A stretch of DNA of 64,000 bases from Lichenicola cladoniae (GTDB lineage Bacteria > Pseudomonadota > Alphaproteobacteria > Acetobacterales > Acetobacteraceae). The position numbers and the translations under genes are program-made. Below the pieces are notes generated by a model. It was not told the DNA's origin. It did no database searches and was given only the letters and a program-made list of their open reading frames with translations. The stretch spans positions 1,677,501-1,741,500 of the forward strand of contig NZ_CP053708.1 of NCBI RefSeq assembly GCF_013201075.1, read 5' to 3'. Below are positions 1 to 8,174 of this stretch, piece by piece; within the stretch, counting starts at the first letter, position 1; each line of letters opens with the position of its first letter.

Positions 1-1603
1 AGACGTTTGGGTCGTTGGCCAATGCATCATGAAATCTGCTAACGTCCCTTACCCCATGATTTACAGCCTGATTTATAAGTGTGTAATAGCTAGATTTCTC
101 CGCGATATCTGCAAACAGGGGTGAGAATGACCCTACGAGCCTGCCCATGCGCTCATGAGAAGCCCATAAAGCCTGAGTGGCTTGTATCGTATCTAGCAGG
201 GCTTGCGTCGTATCGTATTTAGATTGCAGCCACATCTTACAGTAAAGGCCAAAGTATGTTTGAACATCGCACGCCGCTTGGACGCGCATGATATGATCAT
301 GGCGCTTTCCTTTTCTGGGAACAAGTGCTTCGAGCAGATAGTTGACGAGATCTACCCGTCCGGCATCATCGACAAGTAGCGGTGACCTAGCACACTCCGC
401 AGCCATCTTTGCCAAAGAAATAGAGAAGTCAGACCGCATTATGTAGCTACATACATTTTCTCTTACTGAGGGGCGGTTAAGAAAGACCCTTTTCAAATCT
501 TCAGTATCGAGTATTGCTCCTGTTTTTGCAGCAAGATTTATCCATCGCTTTAAGACCTTGTCTCCGTTGCCATGATCGAAAGACTTTTTTGCAAGTCCGG
601 ACGATACGGCCTTTTCGATGCGGGCAACCTCGACGGTGATCTGTTTTCCGCTCGCGACCTTTAAAGCAATGTTTTCAGTAAGCTTATCAAGTTGAGAATT
701 CTGAAATATTCGAAAGTGTTTTGCGGCAGCATCTTTGCGTAGAATCAGTGTTTTTCCACTGTTTAGCCGAACCTGTTTTGTTTGTAGAACTAGGTCCATC
801 GCTTTGAGAACTTGTTTGGCGTCGGAGATCCTGTCGACACCCACGTCGATATCATCCATAAATCTAACGAAATCCCGGTTGGGGTCGCTGGCTAGAAATT
901 TATCGAGCTCATAAAGAAAACAGTGCGCGAGCAAGCGGGGCGCATCAAGGTTCATTTGTGGCAGTCCGATTTCAACACGAGGCATATAATCAGGCTGCCA
1001 AAGAAGGCTGCTCAGCACATGAATAAGCATGTCTAAAACACACTCTTCGACCCCTGAAATCGCCGATATCACGTTTCGAAGGTGGGTATAAGAGATGGAA
1101 TCATAGTAATTTGATATGTCGGTGACGACTATATAGTTCCGATTTGCAGAGAAGTTGAACAACTCCCGTTGAAAATTTAGCCAGGCAGGGATTGAACCAT
1201 ATTGGCTCTTCTGTATTGAGAATTTATGGTTCTTGGGCTCAAAGAAAGCGCATTTCGTTGGCTCTTTTCCTTTTACCTCGGTGTATAGCGCATCAGATAA
1301 ACACTGTAAAACGATGGCATCTTTAACAGAGGGGATAACCAGCTGCCGGCAAAGCCCCTTGCTCTTCTCGACTAGTATTCGTTGAGCACGTTCTGGAACA
1401 TAGTCACCGGCTAAGATCAAACGTGAAAGCTTCTGGCACTCGGCCTTCCTTGCAACGTGAAAGTCGAGGTGTTCAATTCCGTCATTTAAAAACTGCTGTC
1501 GCATATATACTCGGACTTTGGTTGTCCAAATCTTTTCCAGATTTGACGGAGAAAATATTGTTCTCAGCGGGGCCGAGCGGGTATCAAAGTTTGGAGACTT
1601 CAT
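1..1603 (-). CDS. Reverse transcriptase, defence/Abi-like (partial, C-terminus off the left edge)
   Basis: I translated 534 codons from ATG 1603 to the window edge with no stop. The palm-domain motifs of a reverse transcriptase are visible: RQLVIPSVKDAIV (motif 1/2-like, about residues 87-99), motif A TDISNYYDSI with Asp162, a motif-B-like GLPQMNLDAPRLLAH in place of the usual PQG..SP, and motif C RFMDDIDVGVD with the Asp250-Asp251 pair. After the palm comes a long, mainly helical C-terminal region. No group II maturase or retron signature was recognised. This layout (altered motif B plus a helical extension) is seen in the unknown-group/Abi reverse transcriptases, many of which act in phage defence; the exact class is not assignable. 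GC content is clearly lower than in the core genes, which suggests transfer. No strong ribosome binding site precedes the ATG and the frame stays open some way upstream, so the start is uncertain. Confidence 0.85.
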   Translation of the reverse strand, partial: MKSPNFDTRSAPLRTIFSPSNLEKIWTTKVRVYMRQQFLNDGIEHLDFHVARKAECQKLSRLILAGDYVPERAQRILVEKSKGLCRQLVIPSVKDAIVLQCLSDALYTEVKGKEPTKCAFFEPKNHKFSIQKSQYGSIPAWLNFQRELFNFSANRNYIVVTDISNYYDSISYTHLRNVISAISGVEECVLDMLIHVLSSLLWQPDYMPRVEIGLPQMNLDAPRLLAHCFLYELDKFLASDPNRDFVRFMDDIDVGVDRISDAKQVLKAMDLVLQTKQVRLNSGKTLILRKDAAAKHFRIFQNSQLDKLTENIALKVASGKQITVEVARIEKAVSSGLAKKSFDHGNGDKVLKRWINLAAKTGAILDTEDLKRVFLNRPSVRENVCSYIMRSDFSISLAKMAAECARSPLLVDDAGRVDLVNYLLEALVPRKGKRHDHIMRVQAACDVQTYFGLYCKMWLQSKYDTTQALLDTIQATQALWASHERMGRLVGSFSPLFADIAEKSSYYTLINQAVNHGVRDVSRFHDALANDPNV

Positions 1604-3049
1604 GTTAAGCAGCGGCCCATTAGTTACGTAGTATGAGTAGGTTAGAGGGAGTCTTCCTGCGTGATCGGGGTTCTACCCTCAGCAGTCATAAAGCCTGGTA
1701 AAAGACGGACCACGGTAGCCAACGAATTTCTGCATGTCTTGCAATCGGTCCCCGTTTTGACGACATGAAAAAATGTCGCTCGTATCAGTATGTCCAAAAT
1801 TCGTCGCATTAGCCAATGCCAGCGGCGTATTTCCAACGAACATTTAACTGCCTCCGGTCCAATCTGCCGACGGCGTCGTGCGGCTAGTGCTGCCCCGCCG
1901 CGGCCGGAACGGTGGCCCGTCATTCTTATTCCCGGGGATGGCTTGATCGAGATAGTGTACATCCGCTGTGCCGCTTACGGATTGGACGGAAAGGCACCGC
2001 GTCCACCTCCTTGATGTTTCAGCCCCAACGCGTCGGACCCTCGGTCGTGGTGGAAATCCCCAACCGTTACAGCGGCGATCTCCTGCATGACATAGGTCAG
2101 CCTGCTGATCGACCGGGAAGACCACCTTTTCGTGCATGTCCGCCAATGTAGCAAGAGATGTGCATCGACCCGGTAGCGTGCCTTTACTTTCGACAGGGTG
2201 GAGATACAGCTCACCTCATGGTTCATGTCTGGTTGTTCCACGTGCACCACGCGATTATAATTGGCGGTATCGTGTCGCACCAGATGCTCGGACAGGCTTG
2301 ATAGCCCCGAAACGGCGGCGGCACACGGTCGATGGCACTGCACTCTGTTGCTCGCGAACACGATGATCGATCTGGCGCAGCTGGTGGGGCGTCGCGATGC
2401 CAAGGTTTCTGAGTTGCTCCGAACTGAGCTTGTTAGCGGAGGGCGCGGACGCTTTTCTTGCTAGCAACCCAGATGCGTTCCTCAAGGAGAACCCGGGCGC
2501 GTCGAGGTGTGCAAGCTGGCCCGATCGAGCGATAAGGACGGGAAGGAAAGGCGTCACAAGCATGCGATAGCGTAGCAGACCGTTAGCGCGTGATAATTGA
2601 GCCTTCTTGAGCGGCGAAACGATGTTGATGTTTCACAGAGCTGACTTGCGGAAGGAACGCTGCCCGCCTTGGCGCCACAAGGACGGTCTTGCCGGTGTCA
2701 TACTGTGTGCACTTTTCAAGTTAATGTTAATTCTCTGCTTGAAGCGCCGGAGCGTGTATCTTAGAGATTATATAGTTCGGCTGCTACTGTGCTCACGCAC
2801 TTAAATAAAGTGAAGAAATACTGTGGCATCCTCAAGAAGTATTACTTGCCAGTATATTTCCGAATTTCCACCGCGATGCGCACCTACAAGACAGGAGAAC
2901 ACTCGCAAGCAACGCTAGCCGATCTGTATGAAAGCTTAAATATTTGAAGTTGTTGTTGCAGATACAGCGTTTGAAATACTGATCTAATATCCGCCAAGGT
3001 AAGATTATTGCATAAGACAGACCACAAAAGATCAATAGAATTCCGAGGG
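1604..3049. other. About 1.4 kb with no convincing gene, upstream of the reverse transcriptase
   Basis: Only short open frames lie here, on both strands, with no recognisable domain, and they mutually overlap. One minus-strand frame around 2255-2563 contains LSSEQLRNLGIATPHQL, faintly like a DUF1127 tail, but nothing else supports it. The stretch from about 2700 to 3040 is AT-rich. A small hairpin (CGACAT, loop GAAAAA, ATGTCG) sits at 1761-1778. The region looks like decayed accessory DNA. A non-coding RNA serving the neighbouring reverse transcriptase cannot be excluded. Confidence 0.5.
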
Positions 3050-3238
3050 CTGCAGCATCGCCTAGCCCCGTGCCTTGACGAAGGCAAGTAGCGTGCGGGC
3101 CTTGTCGCCAGTCATGTCGCTATGCAGCCCGGGGCGAAACACGATGGTCGGCTCGTTACTCATGTGGACGACGACAGCCCGGACACAAAGGCACCGCGGC
3201 CAGTTTTGTCTTCTTCAGCCGCGACGGCCCAGCGAAGT
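3050..3238 (-). pseudogene. Decayed copy of the alpha/beta-hydrolase / DUF5872 gene junction
   Basis: This stretch aligns by eye, in the same orientation, with about 8002-8240. It shares gccttgtcgccagtcatgtc and acacgatggtcgg (start of the hydrolase gene) and, further right, cttcttcagccgcga (3' end of the DUF5872 gene). About 65 bp corresponding to 8096-8160 are missing, and point changes and frame breaks are scattered through it. It therefore holds the N-terminal part of one gene and the C-terminal part of the next, neither translatable. It is a relic of a second copy of the locus that is intact at 7407-8706. Confidence 0.75.
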
Positions 3239-3370
3239 TAGCTCGGCTCAGTCAGTGCCTCCTACAAAGGTGAACAATCTCAAGCATCGAAACAACGTTG
3301 TCTAATTTCAACGAAGACCTGGATGGTCGAGGTTATATTTTAAGGATAATCTTCAGAATCCTCCATCTTA

Positions 3371-3396
3371 CTCAGCAGTCGGTGATATAAGCTACA
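3371..3396. repeat. IS630 left terminal inverted repeat
   Basis: Matches the inverted complement of 4446-4471 with about four mismatches over 26 bp and is flanked by TA at 3369-3370. It includes the TGA stop codon of the transposase gene. Confidence 0.88.
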
Positions 3397-4421
3397 CTTG
3401 CCACTCTGAAGAATGAGCGCACCAGCTTGGGCATACGTTTGAGTTTGGCAAGCTGACCCTCGATCTTCTCGCCCAAGCTATCGCCCTTCCGCAATGGTGT
3501 TCTGGCTACACCGGTACGCTTGATGTGGCTCCACACGAGCTCGTCCGGGTTAAGATCGGGAGCGTAGCCGGGAAGAAAGTGAAGCGTCAGCATCCCGTTG
3601 GTTGATTGGATGTAGGCGTTCACGAGCTTTGTCTTGTGGGCTGGAAGACCATCGACTACGAGATGAACAGGCTTGCGGCGGTTACGCATCATCATCTTCA
3701 GTAGGACGATAAACAGCTCCGCGTTGAGGCCGCCCTGGTAGGTGCAATACCAGAACGCACCGCGAGCGTTGACGGCTGATGCCGCGCTGATCGACTGCCG
3801 TTGACCCGGGCGCTCGACAACCGGTGTTTGTCCCTTCTTGCCCCAGGTCTTCCCATGCACCGTATCGGCACGGAACCCCGATTCGTCCCAGAAGTAGATC
3901 TCGCCGCCCTCGCTTTTTGCTCTACTGGCAATAGAAGGAAACGTATCACGCTGCCACGTCTGGATGGCTTCAGGGTCGCGTTGATAAGCCCTCTGCAACG
4001 GCTTCTGCGGCGTGAGCTCCAGCCTCGCCAGTAGGGTGCCGACTGCCGTCAAGCCAATTTTGATGCCGAACTTCTCCTCGATCAAAGCGGAGATCATGGA
4101 GCGCGTCCAAAGACCGAAATCCAGACCATACTGACGAGGATCTTTCCCATTGACCCAAAGGAACACCTGCTGCTCCTGACTTGGCGTCAGACTGCGCGGC
4201 GGGCCCAGAGACTTTGTCGAATGCAGCGCCTCATCTCCCAGTTCAGGCGTTGACGCTGCTCTGAGCCATTTGTAGATCGTGGTCCGGCAGAAGCCATACG
4301 ACGCTACGACAGAGGACGGCCGTTCACCGTCGCGAACGCGTTCAACTGCCATCAGCCGTATGGCTTCCAGCGTCCCATGATCAAAAGTTCGGCCATCTCT
4401 CTTCATGCCTGACCGTATCAA
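3372..4421 (-). CDS. IS630 family transposase
   Basis: A 349-residue DDE transposase that would cut and paste the surrounding element at TA sites. The N-terminal 65 residues form a helix-turn-helix DNA-binding region (SYGFCRTTIYKWLRAA). The RNase H-fold catalytic residues read Asp179 in YFWDESGF, Asp257 in LVVDGLPAHK and Glu294 in LNPDELVW, the usual IS630 spacing. The length is normal for a single-frame IS630 transposase and there is no frameshift. ATG 4421 is the first start; an internal ATG six codons in (MKRDGRTF) is an equally possible start. Confidence 0.95.
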   Translation of the reverse strand: MIRSGMKRDGRTFDHGTLEAIRLMAVERVRDGERPSSVVASYGFCRTTIYKWLRAASTPELGDEALHSTKSLGPPRSLTPSQEQQVFLWVNGKDPRQYGLDFGLWTRSMISALIEEKFGIKIGLTAVGTLLARLELTPQKPLQRAYQRDPEAIQTWQRDTFPSIASRAKSEGGEIYFWDESGFRADTVHGKTWGKKGQTPVVERPGQRQSISAASAVNARGAFWYCTYQGGLNAELFIVLLKMMMRNRRKPVHLVVDGLPAHKTKLVNAYIQSTNGMLTLHFLPGYAPDLNPDELVWSHIKRTGVARTPLRKGDSLGEKIEGQLAKLKRMPKLVRSFFRVASVAYITDC

Positions 4422-4445
4422 ATGGCAGATACTAGTACAAGGGAT

Positions 4446-4471
4446 TGTAGCCTATGTCACCGACTTGTGAG
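4446..4471. repeat. IS630 right terminal inverted repeat
   Basis: Inverted partner of 3371-3396, flanked by TA at 4472-4473. It lies 25 bp outside the transposase start and only 27 bp before the start codon of the neighbouring transporter gene. Confidence 0.88.
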
Positions 4472-4498
4472 TAGTAGCTCTTTATATGAGATGATCCC

Positions 4499-5371
4499 AT
4501 GAGCCAGTCTGAGGACGACCAAGCAGAGCCCAGTGGGCACGCGCTCAGCGACGCATCAAGCCTGTCGGCGGTGTCCGAGCCCGAGCGGAAGATCATCGAA
4601 GCGCATAGCCGCCCGAACGCGGCTCTCATCCATGAGACGATCCGCGCGGAGGGCGAAAGCGAACTCAGCCGGCCGGTCACGGCGCTCCTGCTGTCCGGAC
4701 TCGCAGCCGGGCTTGCGATGGGGTTCTCCCTGATCGCCGAGGGGGTGCTTCGAGCACACCTGCCCGATGCGCCCTGGCGGGACCTCGTAGCCAAGTTCGG
4801 TTATACGATCGGCTTCCTGATCGTCGTACTCGGACGCCAGCAACTCTTCACCGAGAATACGCTGACCCCGGTGCTGCCGCTCCTTTACAATCGCGACCTA
4901 CGCACCCTCGGCTTGGTCGTGCGCCTCTGGGCGCTCGTTCTCGCCGCCAACCTCGCCGGCACCTGGGCTATTTCGGCCGTCCTCGCAGGGACAAGCCTTT
5001 TCCCGCCGGAGGTCAAGGAAGCGTTCCTGGCGATCAGCCGGCACGTCGTCGAAGGGTCGTTCTGGATTACGACCATGAGGGGGATTTTCGCGGGCTGGCT
5101 GATCGCGCTGATGGTGTGGCTGATACCCGGGGCAGGGCAATCCCGGTCCGCGGTGATCGTGCTGCTCACCTGGCTGGTCACCGTGGCAGGGTTCGCGCAC
5201 ATCGTTGTCGGCTCGGTGGATGCAAGCTTCCTCGTTCTCTCGGACCAAGCTAGCATCACCGATTATTTGTGGCGCTTCTTCACCCCTACCTTGCTCGGAA
5301 ACGTCGTAGGCGGCGTGGCCCTGGTCGCCGCGCTCAACTCCGGACAGGTCGCGAGCGCGGTGCAGGATTGA
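4499..5371 (+). CDS. Formate/nitrite transporter family protein (YfdC-like)
   Basis: A 290-residue inner-membrane protein. An acidic cytoplasmic N-terminus of about 60 residues is followed by six hydrophobic segments. Family landmarks include GRQQLFTENTLTPVLPLL and the C-terminal TPTLLGNVVGGVALVAALNS. The long charged N-terminus and FTENTL motif resemble the YfdC branch rather than FocA or NirC, so the substrate (a small anion such as formate or nitrite) is uncertain. The IS630 right end lies 27 bp upstream of the ATG, so its native promoter has probably been displaced and expression may depend on the element or be lost. Confidence 0.85.
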   Translation: MSQSEDDQAEPSGHALSDASSLSAVSEPERKIIEAHSRPNAALIHETIRAEGESELSRPVTALLLSGLAAGLAMGFSLIAEGVLRAHLPDAPWRDLVAKFGYTIGFLIVVLGRQQLFTENTLTPVLPLLYNRDLRTLGLVVRLWALVLAANLAGTWAISAVLAGTSLFPPEVKEAFLAISRHVVEGSFWITTMRGIFAGWLIALMVWLIPGAGQSRSAVIVLLTWLVTVAGFAHIVVGSVDASFLVLSDQASITDYLWRFFTPTLLGNVVGGVALVAALNSGQVASAVQD

Positions 5372-5604
5372 CCTCGACGGCATCACAGGCCAGATTAAGG
5401 AACTGGCGTGGTCTGTCTTTGAAAAGGTATGCACGCGATGCGGTTGCGCCATTCCGGTAGCGGTACCTACCTCGGGATATCGCTCGGCGCCTGGGCGACG
5501 AGAGTGAGGACCGTATTGACCGAGCTTCACCTCCAGCCATACCGCCGATAAGGCGCGCCTGGGAGCCGTCGCCTTCTGCCTCCACCACTGCCACATACAT
5601 CGTC

Positions 5605-5781
5605 ATGGCCTGCGTGTGGCTCGCCATGAGCTACCTGCGATCCGACACGCATGGCACGCCGCTCGAGGTAACGATCCTCGCCCTCCAATCCCTGTGCCTG
5701 GTTGTGTTGGTCATGTCGCGCCGCTGGGTTCTGGTAAGCTCCGCCGTGATCCTCATGCTAGCGACGTTCTACAGATTGTGA
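5605..5781 (+). CDS. Small membrane protein, 58 aa
   Basis: Frame MACVWLAMSYLRSDTH to FYRL, with two hydrophobic stretches (about residues 24-37 and 43-56) separated by SRRWV. The stop codon overlaps the ATG of the next small gene (TGATG), a typical translational-coupling arrangement that supports both. The frame is open upstream, so a longer N-terminus is possible. No family was recognised. Confidence 0.45.
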   Translation: MACVWLAMSYLRSDTHGTPLEVTILALQSLCLVVLVMSRRWVLVSSAVILMLATFYRL

Positions 5782-6065
5782 TGGAAGCCGCGTTCACGCG
5801 ACTCGACGCCTGGTCGGGCTGGCTTTACGTGGCGTGTCTCATGGTCGGCAGCTGGTCCGCAACGACGCTGCGTCGCACCATACAGGACGTGATTCCGGTT
5901 CCTTTGGATTGGGCCATCGTCGTCACCCTGGCGGTTTTGACCGTCACGTGCTTCGTTCCCGAGCCTTTCGGCAGGCGGATGAGGACTCTGATTCAACTGA
6001 CGGTGTTAGGTTGTTTCGTGCTCCTCATTTTCAGCGCACGCATGGATGAGCTTGGATTGTCTTAG
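5781..6065 (+). CDS. Small membrane protein, 94 aa
   Basis: Begins MEAAFTRLDAWSGW at the ATG that overlaps the TGA of the preceding gene. Three hydrophobic segments are visible: around residues 12-24 (GWLYVACLMVGSW), 42-56 (WAIVVTLAVLTVTCF) and 69-83 (LIQLTVLGCFVLLIF). An upstream in-frame ATG would give 149 residues, but the extra sequence is low-quality, proline/arginine-rich and covers the upstream gene, so the shorter form is preferred. No family recognised; probably a two-protein membrane unit with its neighbour. Confidence 0.5.
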   Translation: MEAAFTRLDAWSGWLYVACLMVGSWSATTLRRTIQDVIPVPLDWAIVVTLAVLTVTCFVPEPFGRRMRTLIQLTVLGCFVLLIFSARMDELGLS

Positions 6066-6408
6066 GCTGAAAAAGCAATAAAGACGACGCCGGTCTCTCA
6101 CCCCTCCGCGCCCTTTGCAACGATTTCGGCACTTCTTCGTGCCGACTATAAACGTAGACATTTGCAGGCGTGGAAGCAGACATTTTTCGAGTTTGGGACG
6201 GCCCCGACTGCGCAGGCTTTCAGTCAAGGAAGGCCCTTGTGGTCCCCTATGACGCCACCGGCATCTTCGCCCGGGTTCGTAGCCAGTAGAACGGCACGAT
6301 GGAAGTTGTCAGTGTTCCAAAGCGTCCAAGGCACTACTCGCTTGCCCACCGGCGCCGGACTGCGTGCCGGTAGGCAGGAGACAGATGAGCGTAGCGCCCA
6401 CCATACGA
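6066..6408. other. 343-bp gap between convergent accessory genes, nothing recognised
   Basis: Only short overlapping frames without codon-usage support. I see no clear terminator, repeat or RNA gene. It separates the small membrane-protein pair (plus strand) from the minus-strand cassette that ends at 6409. Confidence 0.5.
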
Positions 6409-6714
6409 TCAAGGCCAGAGCTTAAACCTGTCCATCAGCCAGTAGCCGATCAAGAGGACAATGACGATTGGTCCAACAACAGAGCAGAACTTCATGAGAG
6501 CTCGGTCCCGCTCGCTGATTTCCTGCGACTGTTGATAGAGCGCCCAAAGAAGAAGCATCATTGCACTGGCGATCATCGCGATGATGTTGCTCGACATCAA
6601 AGCAATGAAACATAGGATTACGACGATGCCACCTGTCACCCGACCGACCAACGGATGCATTCCGGTCCTCATCTCAGCTTGCGCCTCCGGTTCTCGAGTG
6701 AATACTTTCGCCAT
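6409..6714 (-). CDS. Hypothetical membrane protein, 101 aa
   Basis: A charged N-terminus (MAKVFTREPEAQAEMR) precedes hydrophobic segments at about residues 27-43, 44-60 and 82-96 (GPIVIVLLIGYWLMD), with a polar stretch QQSQEISERDR between them. The start overlaps the last 46 bp of the upstream gene at 6669-7313, so the two are probably co-transcribed and translationally coupled. GC is lower than in the core genes nearby. No family recognised. Confidence 0.55.
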   Translation of the reverse strand: MAKVFTREPEAQAEMRTGMHPLVGRVTGGIVVILCFIALMSSNIIAMIASAMMLLLWALYQQSQEISERDRALMKFCSVVGPIVIVLLIGYWLMDRFKLWP

Positions 6715-7313
6715 TGCTCTGCCTGCTTGGCATCGGTTATCGGATTGTTGCTGACGAAGGTGCCCTCCGCCACCGTGTTTGAAACGGCGATTGCCGCCGA
6801 CCGGGCTAGCGCGGCACCTCCTACCCCGGCTATCATTACGCCAGCGAGGGCGGTCTCAGGAATGACCGCGATCGCGGCGGCGCCGACGAACGTGGCGAAC
6901 AACGTTTTCGCGATAATCGCGCCCGCATCCCGGTAAACATTTGGCGGGGTATAATCGTTACCGTCGATCTTTCCGCCCCACTGTCGGGTGCAGTTCACCT
7001 TCCACTCATCCGGCGTTAAGCAAAACGGATAATCTGTGGGTGAAGCCATCATGTCGTGCTTTGCTTGAAGCACAGAGCTTGGGTAAATGGTCCACTTGCT
7101 CTGCCTGTTCGCACCCTCAATCGCTTGATCAACAAGTTTTCGGAAAGCCGGCGTTGCCATCCGATACAGTGGCAACGCAGCCCACAGGGCACGATACATG
7201 TCTGGGTTCGGCGAACTCTTGATCCTGGCGTTGACGCCACCGGTGCCCCATCTGGTCTGTGCAAGCAGTAACTCCAGGTTCGGGTCACTGAGTTTCGAGC
7301 TTCCTGTAGGCAT
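6669..7313 (-). CDS. Hypothetical protein with C-terminal hydrophobic region, 214 aa
   Basis: The first 140 residues look like a soluble domain with several Trp and Tyr residues and two Cys (PFCLTPDEWKVNCTRQW). Residues about 142-175 are hydrophobic and Ala/Gly-rich (ATFVGAAAIAVIPETALAGV), suggesting one or two membrane helices, followed by a basic tail. A good Shine-Dalgarno sequence (AGAGGAAA) lies about 7 nt before ATG 7313. It is first in a two-gene unit with the small membrane protein at 6409-6714. I do not recognise the family; a soluble domain paired with a membrane partner could be many things, including a toxin-immunity type pair, but nothing proves that. Confidence 0.6.
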   Translation of the reverse strand: MPTGSSKLSDPNLELLLAQTRWGTGGVNARIKSSPNPDMYRALWAALPLYRMATPAFRKLVDQAIEGANRQSKWTIYPSSVLQAKHDMMASPTDYPFCLTPDEWKVNCTRQWGGKIDGNDYTPPNVYRDAGAIIAKTLFATFVGAAAIAVIPETALAGVMIAGVGGAALARSAAIAVSNTVAEGTFVSNNPITDAKQAEQWRKYSLENRRRKLR

Positions 7314-7406
7314 GGGGTTTTCCTCTTCGTCCTCGGTGCTTGTAGGTCCCTAGAATGTCCCGGCAAGTCAGTCGGCTTTTTCGCGATAATCTGCCGGATG
7401 CTCCCT

Positions 7407-8174
7407 TCAGGAAGACGCTGTTTGCCCGTTCAGCAAGGACTGAAGCACTGCCTGCAGAAGCCCGATATCCTGCACCCGCGACAACCGGTGATCACCGTCC
7501 TTCACCAGCGTGACCACGCAATCCTCGCTCGTCACCAGCTTGGCGATCTCCAGCGCCGTCTTCCACGACACCACGTCGTCGCGCTGCCCATGCAGCAGCC
7601 GGACCGGGCACGCCACCGCGATCGGCCCGTCCATCAGGCTGCACGCCTCGCCGTCCGCCACCGCCCGGCTCGTCAGCACCAGCGGATCCGGTTCCGCCGG
7701 CAGCACCACCCGTCCGTCCCGCGCCAGCGCCTCCAGCGCGATCGGCGGCAGTCGCGCCACCATTTCGCGCGTAAAGTCCGGTGCGGCGGCGATCCCCACC
7801 AGTCCGCGCACGCGGGCCTCGCCGGCCAGCCCGATCGCCACCATCAGCGCGATCCAGCCGCCCATCGACGATCCCACCAGCACCACCGGCCCCGGCGCCA
7901 GCGCGTCGATGATGGCGATCGCGTCGTCGCGCCACACCGCGACGCTGCCCTCGTCGAACCGGCCGCCGCTCTCGCCATGGCCGGAATAATCCAGCCGCAG
8001 CATCGCCTGGCCCCGTGCCTCCGCGAAGGCGACCAGCGCGCGGGCCTTGTCGCCGGTCATGTCGCTGCGCAGCCCGGGCAGGAACACGATGGTCGGCGCG
8101 CGGCCGGGCAGGTGCCGCGCGGCGAGCCGGATGCCGTCGGGGCGGGTGATCTGGTGCAGGGTCTCGTTGCTCAT
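7407..8174 (-). CDS. Alpha/beta hydrolase
   Basis: A 255-residue single-domain alpha/beta hydrolase. The oxyanion region FLPGLRSD lies near residue 31. The nucleophile elbow GSSMGG places Ser103 as nucleophile. The acid is probably Asp199 (HGQRDD), and His229 (GDHR) completes the triad. No signal peptide, so cytoplasmic. The size and FLPGLRSDMTG motif resemble the ABHD10-like acyl-thioesterase/esterase group; the substrate is unknown. It sits 19 bp downstream of the DUF5872 gene in the same orientation. A decayed copy of its 5' end lies at 3050-3238. Confidence 0.88.
   Translation of the reverse strand: MSNETLHQITRPDGIRLAARHLPGRAPTIVFLPGLRSDMTGDKARALVAFAEARGQAMLRLDYSGHGESGGRFDEGSVAVWRDDAIAIIDALAPGPVVLVGSSMGGWIALMVAIGLAGEARVRGLVGIAAAPDFTREMVARLPPIALEALARDGRVVLPAEPDPLVLTSRAVADGEACSLMDGPIAVACPVRLLHGQRDDVVSWKTALEIAKLVTSEDCVVTLVKDGDHRLSRVQDIGLLQAVLQSLLNGQTASS

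Follow-up and report, generated by a model that had tools for sequence, protein, structure and literature searches.

A UG13a reverse transcriptase with an altered motif B on a chromosomal insertion

A reverse-transcriptase gene at the edge of the window (the whole 64,000-nucleotide stretch of DNA that was analysed) raises the question of what kind of enzyme combines intact catalytic motifs with an altered motif B, and whether it would work alone, with a partner gene, or on an RNA template. The original prediction had read it as a reverse transcriptase of the UG/Abi type and as the best candidate for an undescribed system. Recent work on UG/Abi enzymes has brought to light de novo genes, homopolymers, and protein-templated DNA.

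Gene, family, and motif B

The gene fills window 1..1603 on the minus strand, where a reading frame (2-1603) of 534 residues is open as far as the window edge. It had been described as cut by that edge, and upon retrieving the sequence to the left we found this to be so: the full protein has 600 residues, of which the window encodes residues 1-534, with the remaining 66 and the stop codon at L002:17302-17501, the gene ending 200 bases before window base 1. Followed past the edge through L002:17302, the frame is intact, with zero internal stops. The palm motifs were present as first read, with catalytic Asp162 in motif A (VTD; 1118..1120, minus strand), equivalent to Asp166 of the Bradyrhizobium homologue L020, and Asp250-Asp251 in motif C (RFMDD; 851..856, minus strand, supported by family comparison), along with the altered motif B, GLPQMNLDAPRLLAH (residues 213-227; 923..967, minus strand). 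The low GC content held up as well, at 0.47 in the first kb of the window and 0.45 over the full coding sequence, versus 0.65-0.73 across most of the window. Between this gene and its Azospirillum homologue, identity at codon positions 1, 2, and 3 was 0.64, 0.77, and 0.36, an order (2 > 1 > 3) that was repeated in five other UG13a pairs; these values indicate that the protein is under purifying selection, with silent sites near saturation.

Profile searches pointed to a single family. In PADLOC, the window part of the protein matched RT_UG13a at 2.3e-194, with UG21 as the next family at 8.8e-35, and in the genome search the whole gene matched RT_UG13a at 1.9e-208 (694 bits) over model positions 1-587 of 589. 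The best NCBIfam model was a group II maturase, which scored 78.4 bits versus a cut-off of 300; Pfam gave RVT_1 alone, at 28 bits and just below its cut-off; and the only retron model listed was St85, at 21.5 bits versus a cut-off of 235. Because the RT_UG13a match reaches 694 bits, versus 78 bits for group II and a sub-cut-off RVT_1, the protein is, by sequence, a UG13a reverse transcriptase, i.e., it belongs to a UG/Abi group already catalogued in PADLOC. The searches against UG families thus bore out the predicted UG/Abi type, the best match being neither a group II intron nor a retron, but the notion of an undescribed system had to be given up since the family is catalogued as RT_UG13a. 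Our literature search, to which subscription papers were mostly inaccessible, found no paper on the function of UG13 reverse transcriptases. RT_UG13a was likewise the best family for all seven UG13a proteins scanned with PADLOC (the present one, L020-L023, L038, and L039; L018 and L019 were left out). In a 24-row tree, the nine UG13a rows formed one side of one branch (support 100/99). Their nearest row was UG21 (83/81), with UG19 and Drt4-like rows near, where long branches make the deeper order unsure; the join of UG19 and Drt4-like rows was weak (85/49).

The altered motif B proved to be real. All nine UG13a members share the consensus GLP[QV]x[NHQ][LFI][DE]A[PI]RLLAH, located in each of them 34 residues before the Arg of R-x-x-D-D, and compared with group II proteins their loop is one residue longer and lacks PQG. 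Its recurrence in nine of nine proteins means that it is no chance variant or sequencing error. PQG or PQA, on the other hand, was kept in one UG19, one UG21, four DRT9, and two Drt4-like proteins (four Drt4-like loci were found and two, L103 and L104, were read; L101 and L102 were left out because no open frame longer than 200 residues contained an [FYW]xDD motif). Hence, as far as these sequences tell, the altered motif B is a distinguishing feature of UG13a and not general to UG/Abi enzymes. The original prediction had held the whole combination to be common to UG/Abi reverse transcriptases; its type assignment stands, while its extension of the altered motif B to UG/Abi enzymes at large does not, as others keep PQG or PQA.

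Insertion site, neighbours, and distribution

The gene is carried by an insertion of about 8.4 kb, the right part of which covers window 1..7450, and for which empty sites were found in G001, G003, and G004. It lies between an epimerase-like gene (ending at L002:16581) and an alpha/beta hydrolase gene (7407-8174, minus strand), which adjoin each other in these three genomes (the G003 contig ends inside the hydrolase gene). Compared with the empty sites, the DNA is similar up to L002:16558 and again from window 7451 onward, which places the ends of the insertion at about L002:16558-16581 and window 7406-7450. At the same site, G002 carries a different insert with a 1049-residue ORF (L048 1888-5037) that has no Pfam or PADLOC match. 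The insertion also holds an IS630-type element (3369-4473) with 28-base inverted repeats (3369-3396 and 4446-4473, 86% complementary) and a 349-residue DDE_3 transposase (3372..4421, minus strand), a neighbour and not a part of the system. Further cargo consists of a formate/nitrite-type transporter (window 4499-5371) and ORFs at 5616-6065, 6409-6714, and 6669-7313 (149, 101, and 214 residues) with no Pfam match. Window 3049-3156 holds short segments (55-106 bases) that align at 75-82% with the hydrolase gene region of G004, G001, and G002, which marks this part of the insertion as a partial, decayed hydrolase duplicate, about 4 kb from the intact gene at 7407-8174.

Partner genes had been suspected beyond the window edge, and none were found there: the left flank (L002) contains a 100-residue ORF without a Pfam match, followed by genes of chromosomal type, the first of them the epimerase-like gene (weak Pfam match), which is present in all four same-genus genomes. 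No recognised defence gene lies next to this UG13a gene, and no second reverse transcriptase was seen beside UG13a. A fixed partner gene was rejected since, by eye, no neighbour was common to the UG13a loci compared. The sole shared neighbour was a probable rpoD, near the Bradyrhizobium and Hyphomicrobiales reverse transcriptases at different distances (rpoD, uvrA in G1097, and a terminator-like hairpin after the Bradyrhizobium rpoD were recognised by eye, not by model).

The surroundings of the relatives vary. In Sinorhizobium, a phage-integrase-type gene lies 2.3 kb upstream of the reverse transcriptase, and the neighbours tested gave no PADLOC match; in G1015, a tRNA lies about 200 nt downstream; and in G1097 the gene sits behind a probable uvrA. 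In the place of the G1097 reverse transcriptase, G1377 has a DzbA-type gene (PADLOC, 6e-52; L097 1387-3690) beside a 375-residue ORF, a partner candidate with a weak, under-cut-off HEPN-type match, and G1366 has an AlbA_2 (Schlafen-type) gene (L098 2548-3930), so the place behind uvrA looks like a defence hot spot in this genus. Between uvrA and the UG13a gene of G1097 (L039 about 5700-6000) there is also a degenerate repeat of the 3' end of the probable uvrA, possibly a trace of insertions at the site. Such varying sites and surroundings are habits of defence cargo.

Counting one locus per organism, we found nine UG13a loci including the present one, plus one decayed copy. Identity to the present protein was 60% for an Acetobacteraceae MAG homologue (its N-terminus off the contig), 59% for one on a plasmid of Azospirillum B510, 58% for G1015, 43% for a Hyphomicrobiales MAG, 42-43% for Bradyrhizobium (L020), 40-41% for Sinorhizobium plasmid homologues (three records, one matching in two pieces), 31% for G1097, and 27-30% for Leptospira weilii plasmid homologues (three mutually identical records). 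The decayed copy, L029 (G157:C16:72-1772), comes from the same family as the window genome and contains several stops and frame changes; it was called UG13a from its match to the UG13a model only.

The gene is rare at every level searched. It was absent from all four same-genus genomes, and a search of 60 relatives gave, outside the own genome, nothing stronger than 2.7e-14. Among 395 genomes of the order, three proteins passed 1e-25, namely the present one, the decayed copy, and one UG19 protein; among 385 genomes of the class, two passed, the present one and one UG21; and a search of 398 genomes of the phylum, with A1 as the query alignment and 1e-30 as the threshold, gave three, the present one, G1015, and G1097 (the three samples overlap). 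UG13a proper accordingly occurs in two of the 395 order genomes (own and decayed) and, of the 385 in the class, in the own genome alone; in the families of G1015 and G1097 the known locus was again the only one, among 87 and 149 genomes, respectively. Viral relatives amounted to three weak matches to the reverse-transcriptase domain with A1 and none with UG19, UG21, or Leptospira UG13a queries, and phage records to one weak match. A sequence search of the PDB with A1 (E up to 0.01) returned group II, retron-type-named group II, and Cas6-RT-Cas1 chains, and one with a G1097 query (E up to 10) returned similar reverse transcriptases plus retrons.

Sequence and space for a flanking RNA

Upon locally aligning 700-nt flanks from 11 pairs (20 comparisons, 200 shuffles each), we found a single match that combined a strong score with similar offsets in both flanks; it lies downstream of the Bradyrhizobium and Sinorhizobium genes (6/200 shuffles; offsets +510/+495) and, in Bradyrhizobium, past the next gene. 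One upstream match, 19 nt long and shared by the Hyphomicrobiales MAG and Sinorhizobium, scored above all 200 shuffles; with offsets of -151 versus -59, it was judged to be chance or unrelated and was rejected as an RNA. Other low counts were 4/200 (Azospirillum/G1015, upstream), and, downstream, 5/200 (Hyphomicrobiales/Bradyrhizobium), 8/200 (own/Bradyrhizobium), and 11/200 (own/Azospirillum), and some such matches are expected among 20 comparisons. As a control we used DRT9, which has a known upstream ncRNA (three loci with one useful pair; a fourth locus, G894, was cut at its contig start and left out): the pair at 48% identity gave 4/200 at offsets of -180 and -164, and pairs at 30-33% gave nothing. 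Because the known RNA was barely detected, the absence of a flank RNA at UG13a loci is weak evidence, and strongest for the pairs at 54-66%.

Six of eight leaders folded no better than their shuffles, and two folded better, those of Leptospira (z -2.45) and G1097 (z -2.31; 2/200 each). Folds of the eight downstream stretches were borderline at most, with z -1.85 (6/200) for the present locus and z -1.86 (7/200) for the Hyphomicrobiales MAG. Rfam returned two tRNAs and nothing else over eight UG13a loci, and no conserved block of synonymous codons was found inside the gene in five pairs. A small RNA is nevertheless possible at these loci since the DRT10 ncRNA, as published, is only 137 nt long.

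The space beside the gene gives better evidence against an RNA than flank alignment does. In Azospirillum, GC drops from 0.63-0.69 to 0.30-0.49 at about L021 4900-6800 (0.52 in the 100 after that), where the UG13a gene occupies 5001-6803 and the adjoining ORFs end at 4816 and 6869. The low-GC block, of about 2 kb (about 4900-6850), is little larger than the gene, which is thus a compact single-gene unit in at least this organism, and the upstream room measures 184 nt, only about 100 of them low-GC. In Bradyrhizobium, about 125 nt are available upstream, after the terminator-like hairpin behind the probable rpoD, and the reverse-transcriptase stop is followed after 48 nt by a DCC1-like gene; in two related genomes, homologues of the latter align from its 11th base on, with other DNA before it. 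In Leptospira, the upstream room is 162 nt, to a gene annotated as a restriction endonuclease. More free room exists at the present locus (about 1.7 kb upstream, between the reverse transcriptase and the IS element, without a recognised gene), in G1015 (613 nt to the next ORF), and in G1097.

Predicted architecture, mode of action, and known systems

We read the architecture from a predicted model (m6a367b30465d) of the Bradyrhizobium homologue L020, which is 43% identical to the present protein. Built with three UG13a relatives and 15 group II reverse-transcriptase domains in the alignment, it reached a mean pLDDT of 73.6 and a pTM of 0.70. The group II rows, which steer the reverse-transcriptase part and not the tail, came from 15 of 32 loci (L073, which has a stop, was left out, as were L074, L077, L082, L088, L093, and eleven more). 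A first model, from four rows, placed most of residues 1-294 below 50 and was unused for claims on the reverse-transcriptase domain; its helical part was mostly confident too, without group II rows, so that two models back the long helical tail of the original prediction.

The structural values below come from a second alignment of the Foldseek PDB matches, a list from which absence is no evidence. The highest Z rows were group II reverse transcriptases (best Z 20.4, 270 residues) and G2L4 (Z 19.6, 330 residues, 7.9 A). Alignments spanning both the reverse transcriptase and the helical repeats (377-468 residues) were obtained with DRT6 (9wy8; Z 16.8, 430 residues, 4.3 A), DRT4 (9vdo; Z 15.7, 445, 4.6 A), UG15 (9l9s; Z 14.2, 441, 4.8 A), AbiK (7r07; Z 13.9, 463, 4.7 A), Abi-P2 (Z 14.6, 389, 5.4 A), and AbiA (Z 14.3, 377, 5.2 A). 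Five DRT9 entries aligned over 254-271 residues (9vma: Z 16.1, 256 residues, 3.1 A) and DRT2 (9c0i) over 255 (Z 15.8, 2.9 A), both confined to model residues 14-356, mainly the reverse-transcriptase part. Foldseek TM-scores by query length were 0.44-0.50 for DRT4, UG15, DRT6, and AbiK, 0.38-0.41 for AbiA, 0.29-0.35 for Abi-P2, and 0.29-0.34 for DRT9 and DRT2, the DRT9 alignments extending over about 600 columns at an rmsd near 20 A in most rows. The comparison barely tests the model beyond residue 423, and since shape alone can make repeat solenoids align, it supports, and does not prove, a reverse-transcriptase domain fused to an alpha-helical repeat domain as in class 1. Class 1 UG/Abi enzymes are described as such fusions, with HEAT-like repeats (PMC13174585), and two preprints, as far as their accounts go, assign untemplated synthesis to class 1 (reverse transcriptase plus alpha-repeat) and ncRNA-templated synthesis to class 2 (literature used: PMC12483538, PMC12632851, PMC13275509, PMC9508834, PMC8934634, PMC13174585, and PMC13213688).

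The tail offers a candidate primer. All nine UG13a proteins carry D-x-[YH]-Y at 3 to 33 residues before the stop, with the last Tyr (Tyr591 in the present protein) invariant and the preceding residue His in G1097. This position resembles that of the priming tail tyrosines reported for DRT3b (Tyr666) and DRT9 (Tyr496/498); the published accounts further name Ser456 or Tyr444 of the C-terminal tail for DRT10 and, for AbiK, Tyr44 close to the N-terminus. Position and conservation thus suggest Tyr591 as the primer. The tail does not settle the question of templating because DRT9, as described, has priming tail tyrosines and yet needs an ncRNA.

The reading we favour, to which we give about an even chance, is that of a stand-alone UG13a anti-phage polymerase that primes itself and needs no RNA template. 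The reverse-transcriptase-like domain with its remodelled motif B and the C-terminal alpha-helical repeat domain would probably form an oligomer; DNA synthesis would probably start at the hydroxyl of the enzyme's own tail tyrosine, Tyr591 or perhaps Tyr590, and need no RNA template to proceed, as is the case for AbiK, DRT4, and DRT3b; and the DNA thus joined to the enzyme, or its accumulation upon a phage trigger, might then halt growth of the infected cell. We infer the defence function from the family, the varying sites, and the neighbours. A bolder version, which we hold only tentatively, is that the rebuilt motif B loop, one residue longer, without PQG and with an invariant Arg and His, takes the place of the RNA template, the protein itself limiting the incoming nucleotides as Arg241 and Glu22 do in DRT3b, and that the self-primed enzyme makes a new type of product. 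In the description of DRT3b, Arg241 sets nucleotide choice and precedes Asp278 of YVDD by 37 residues; by this spacing it would probably sit near motif B.

The main competitor, possible though clearly less probable, is an enzyme of class 2 character that repeatedly copies a short or fast-evolving cis-encoded ncRNA from a tail-tyrosine primer, as DRT9 and DRT10 do. Priming by tail residues in these two ncRNA-dependent enzymes (Tyr in DRT9, Ser or Tyr in DRT10) is compatible with it, as are the well-folding Leptospira and G1097 leaders, the borderline downstream folds, the free room at the present locus, G1015, and G1097, and the DRT9 control, by which such an RNA could have been missed. It is opposed by the narrow upstream room in Bradyrhizobium, Leptospira, and Azospirillum, by flank alignments whose one strong, like-offset match was that of Bradyrhizobium and Sinorhizobium, by the six ordinary leaders, the missing synonymous-codon block, and the tRNA-only Rfam result, and by DRT9 and DRT2 aligning with the model over no more than 254-271 residues.

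That the host has domesticated the enzyme for DNA repair or other housekeeping, as reported for G2L4, is improbable: the model does align with G2L4, but the group II rows in its alignment favour such matches, and the very patchy distribution, the low GC, the varying sites, and the plasmid locations are at odds with a housekeeping role. Hardly any weight is left for a remnant of a group II intron, retron, or diversity-generating element, to which the weak RVT_1 and group II maturase matches might point, since the former falls just below and the latter far below its cut-off while the family model scores 694 bits, Rfam found no intron RNA in L001, which spans the window part of the gene and 1.5 kb of flank on each side, and the frame is intact and under selection. 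The self-primed, template-free polymerase hence remains favoured over an ncRNA-templated enzyme, a repair enzyme, and a remnant, in that order.

UG13a is thus a rare, catalogued family of reverse-transcriptase-like proteins that probably acts against phage by DNA synthesis without a partner gene. Motif B and the invariant tail tyrosine are two conserved oddities open to a small set of point mutants, and if UG13a writes DNA without a template, it would be a further single-gene system, possibly with a product of its own. Compared with the catalogued RT_UG13a family of PADLOC-DB, the present protein agrees in its full-length match, motif B, tail, length, and single tree group and differs in nothing essential; the gene is a new member, located on a chromosomal insertion. 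DRT4 (UG15), DRT6, and AbiK are likewise single genes whose products combine a reverse transcriptase with helical repeats, aligned with the predicted model over 430-468 residues, but their identity is only 11-14%; two Drt4-like relatives keep PQG or PQA in motif B, whereas UG13a lacks it, and AbiK primes near its N-terminus, whereas the invariant Tyr of UG13a is C-terminal. DRT3b (UG8) shares, going by its description, a reverse-transcriptase-like domain, an alpha-repeat domain, and a tail with an invariant Tyr, but its partners at the locus are DRT3a and an ncRNA, whereas no second reverse transcriptase was seen beside UG13a. DRT9 (UG28) and DRT10 (UG17) have in common with UG13a a conserved hydroxyl residue in the C-terminal tail; both, however, need a cis-encoded ncRNA, and DRT9 keeps PQG and aligns over 254-271 residues only.
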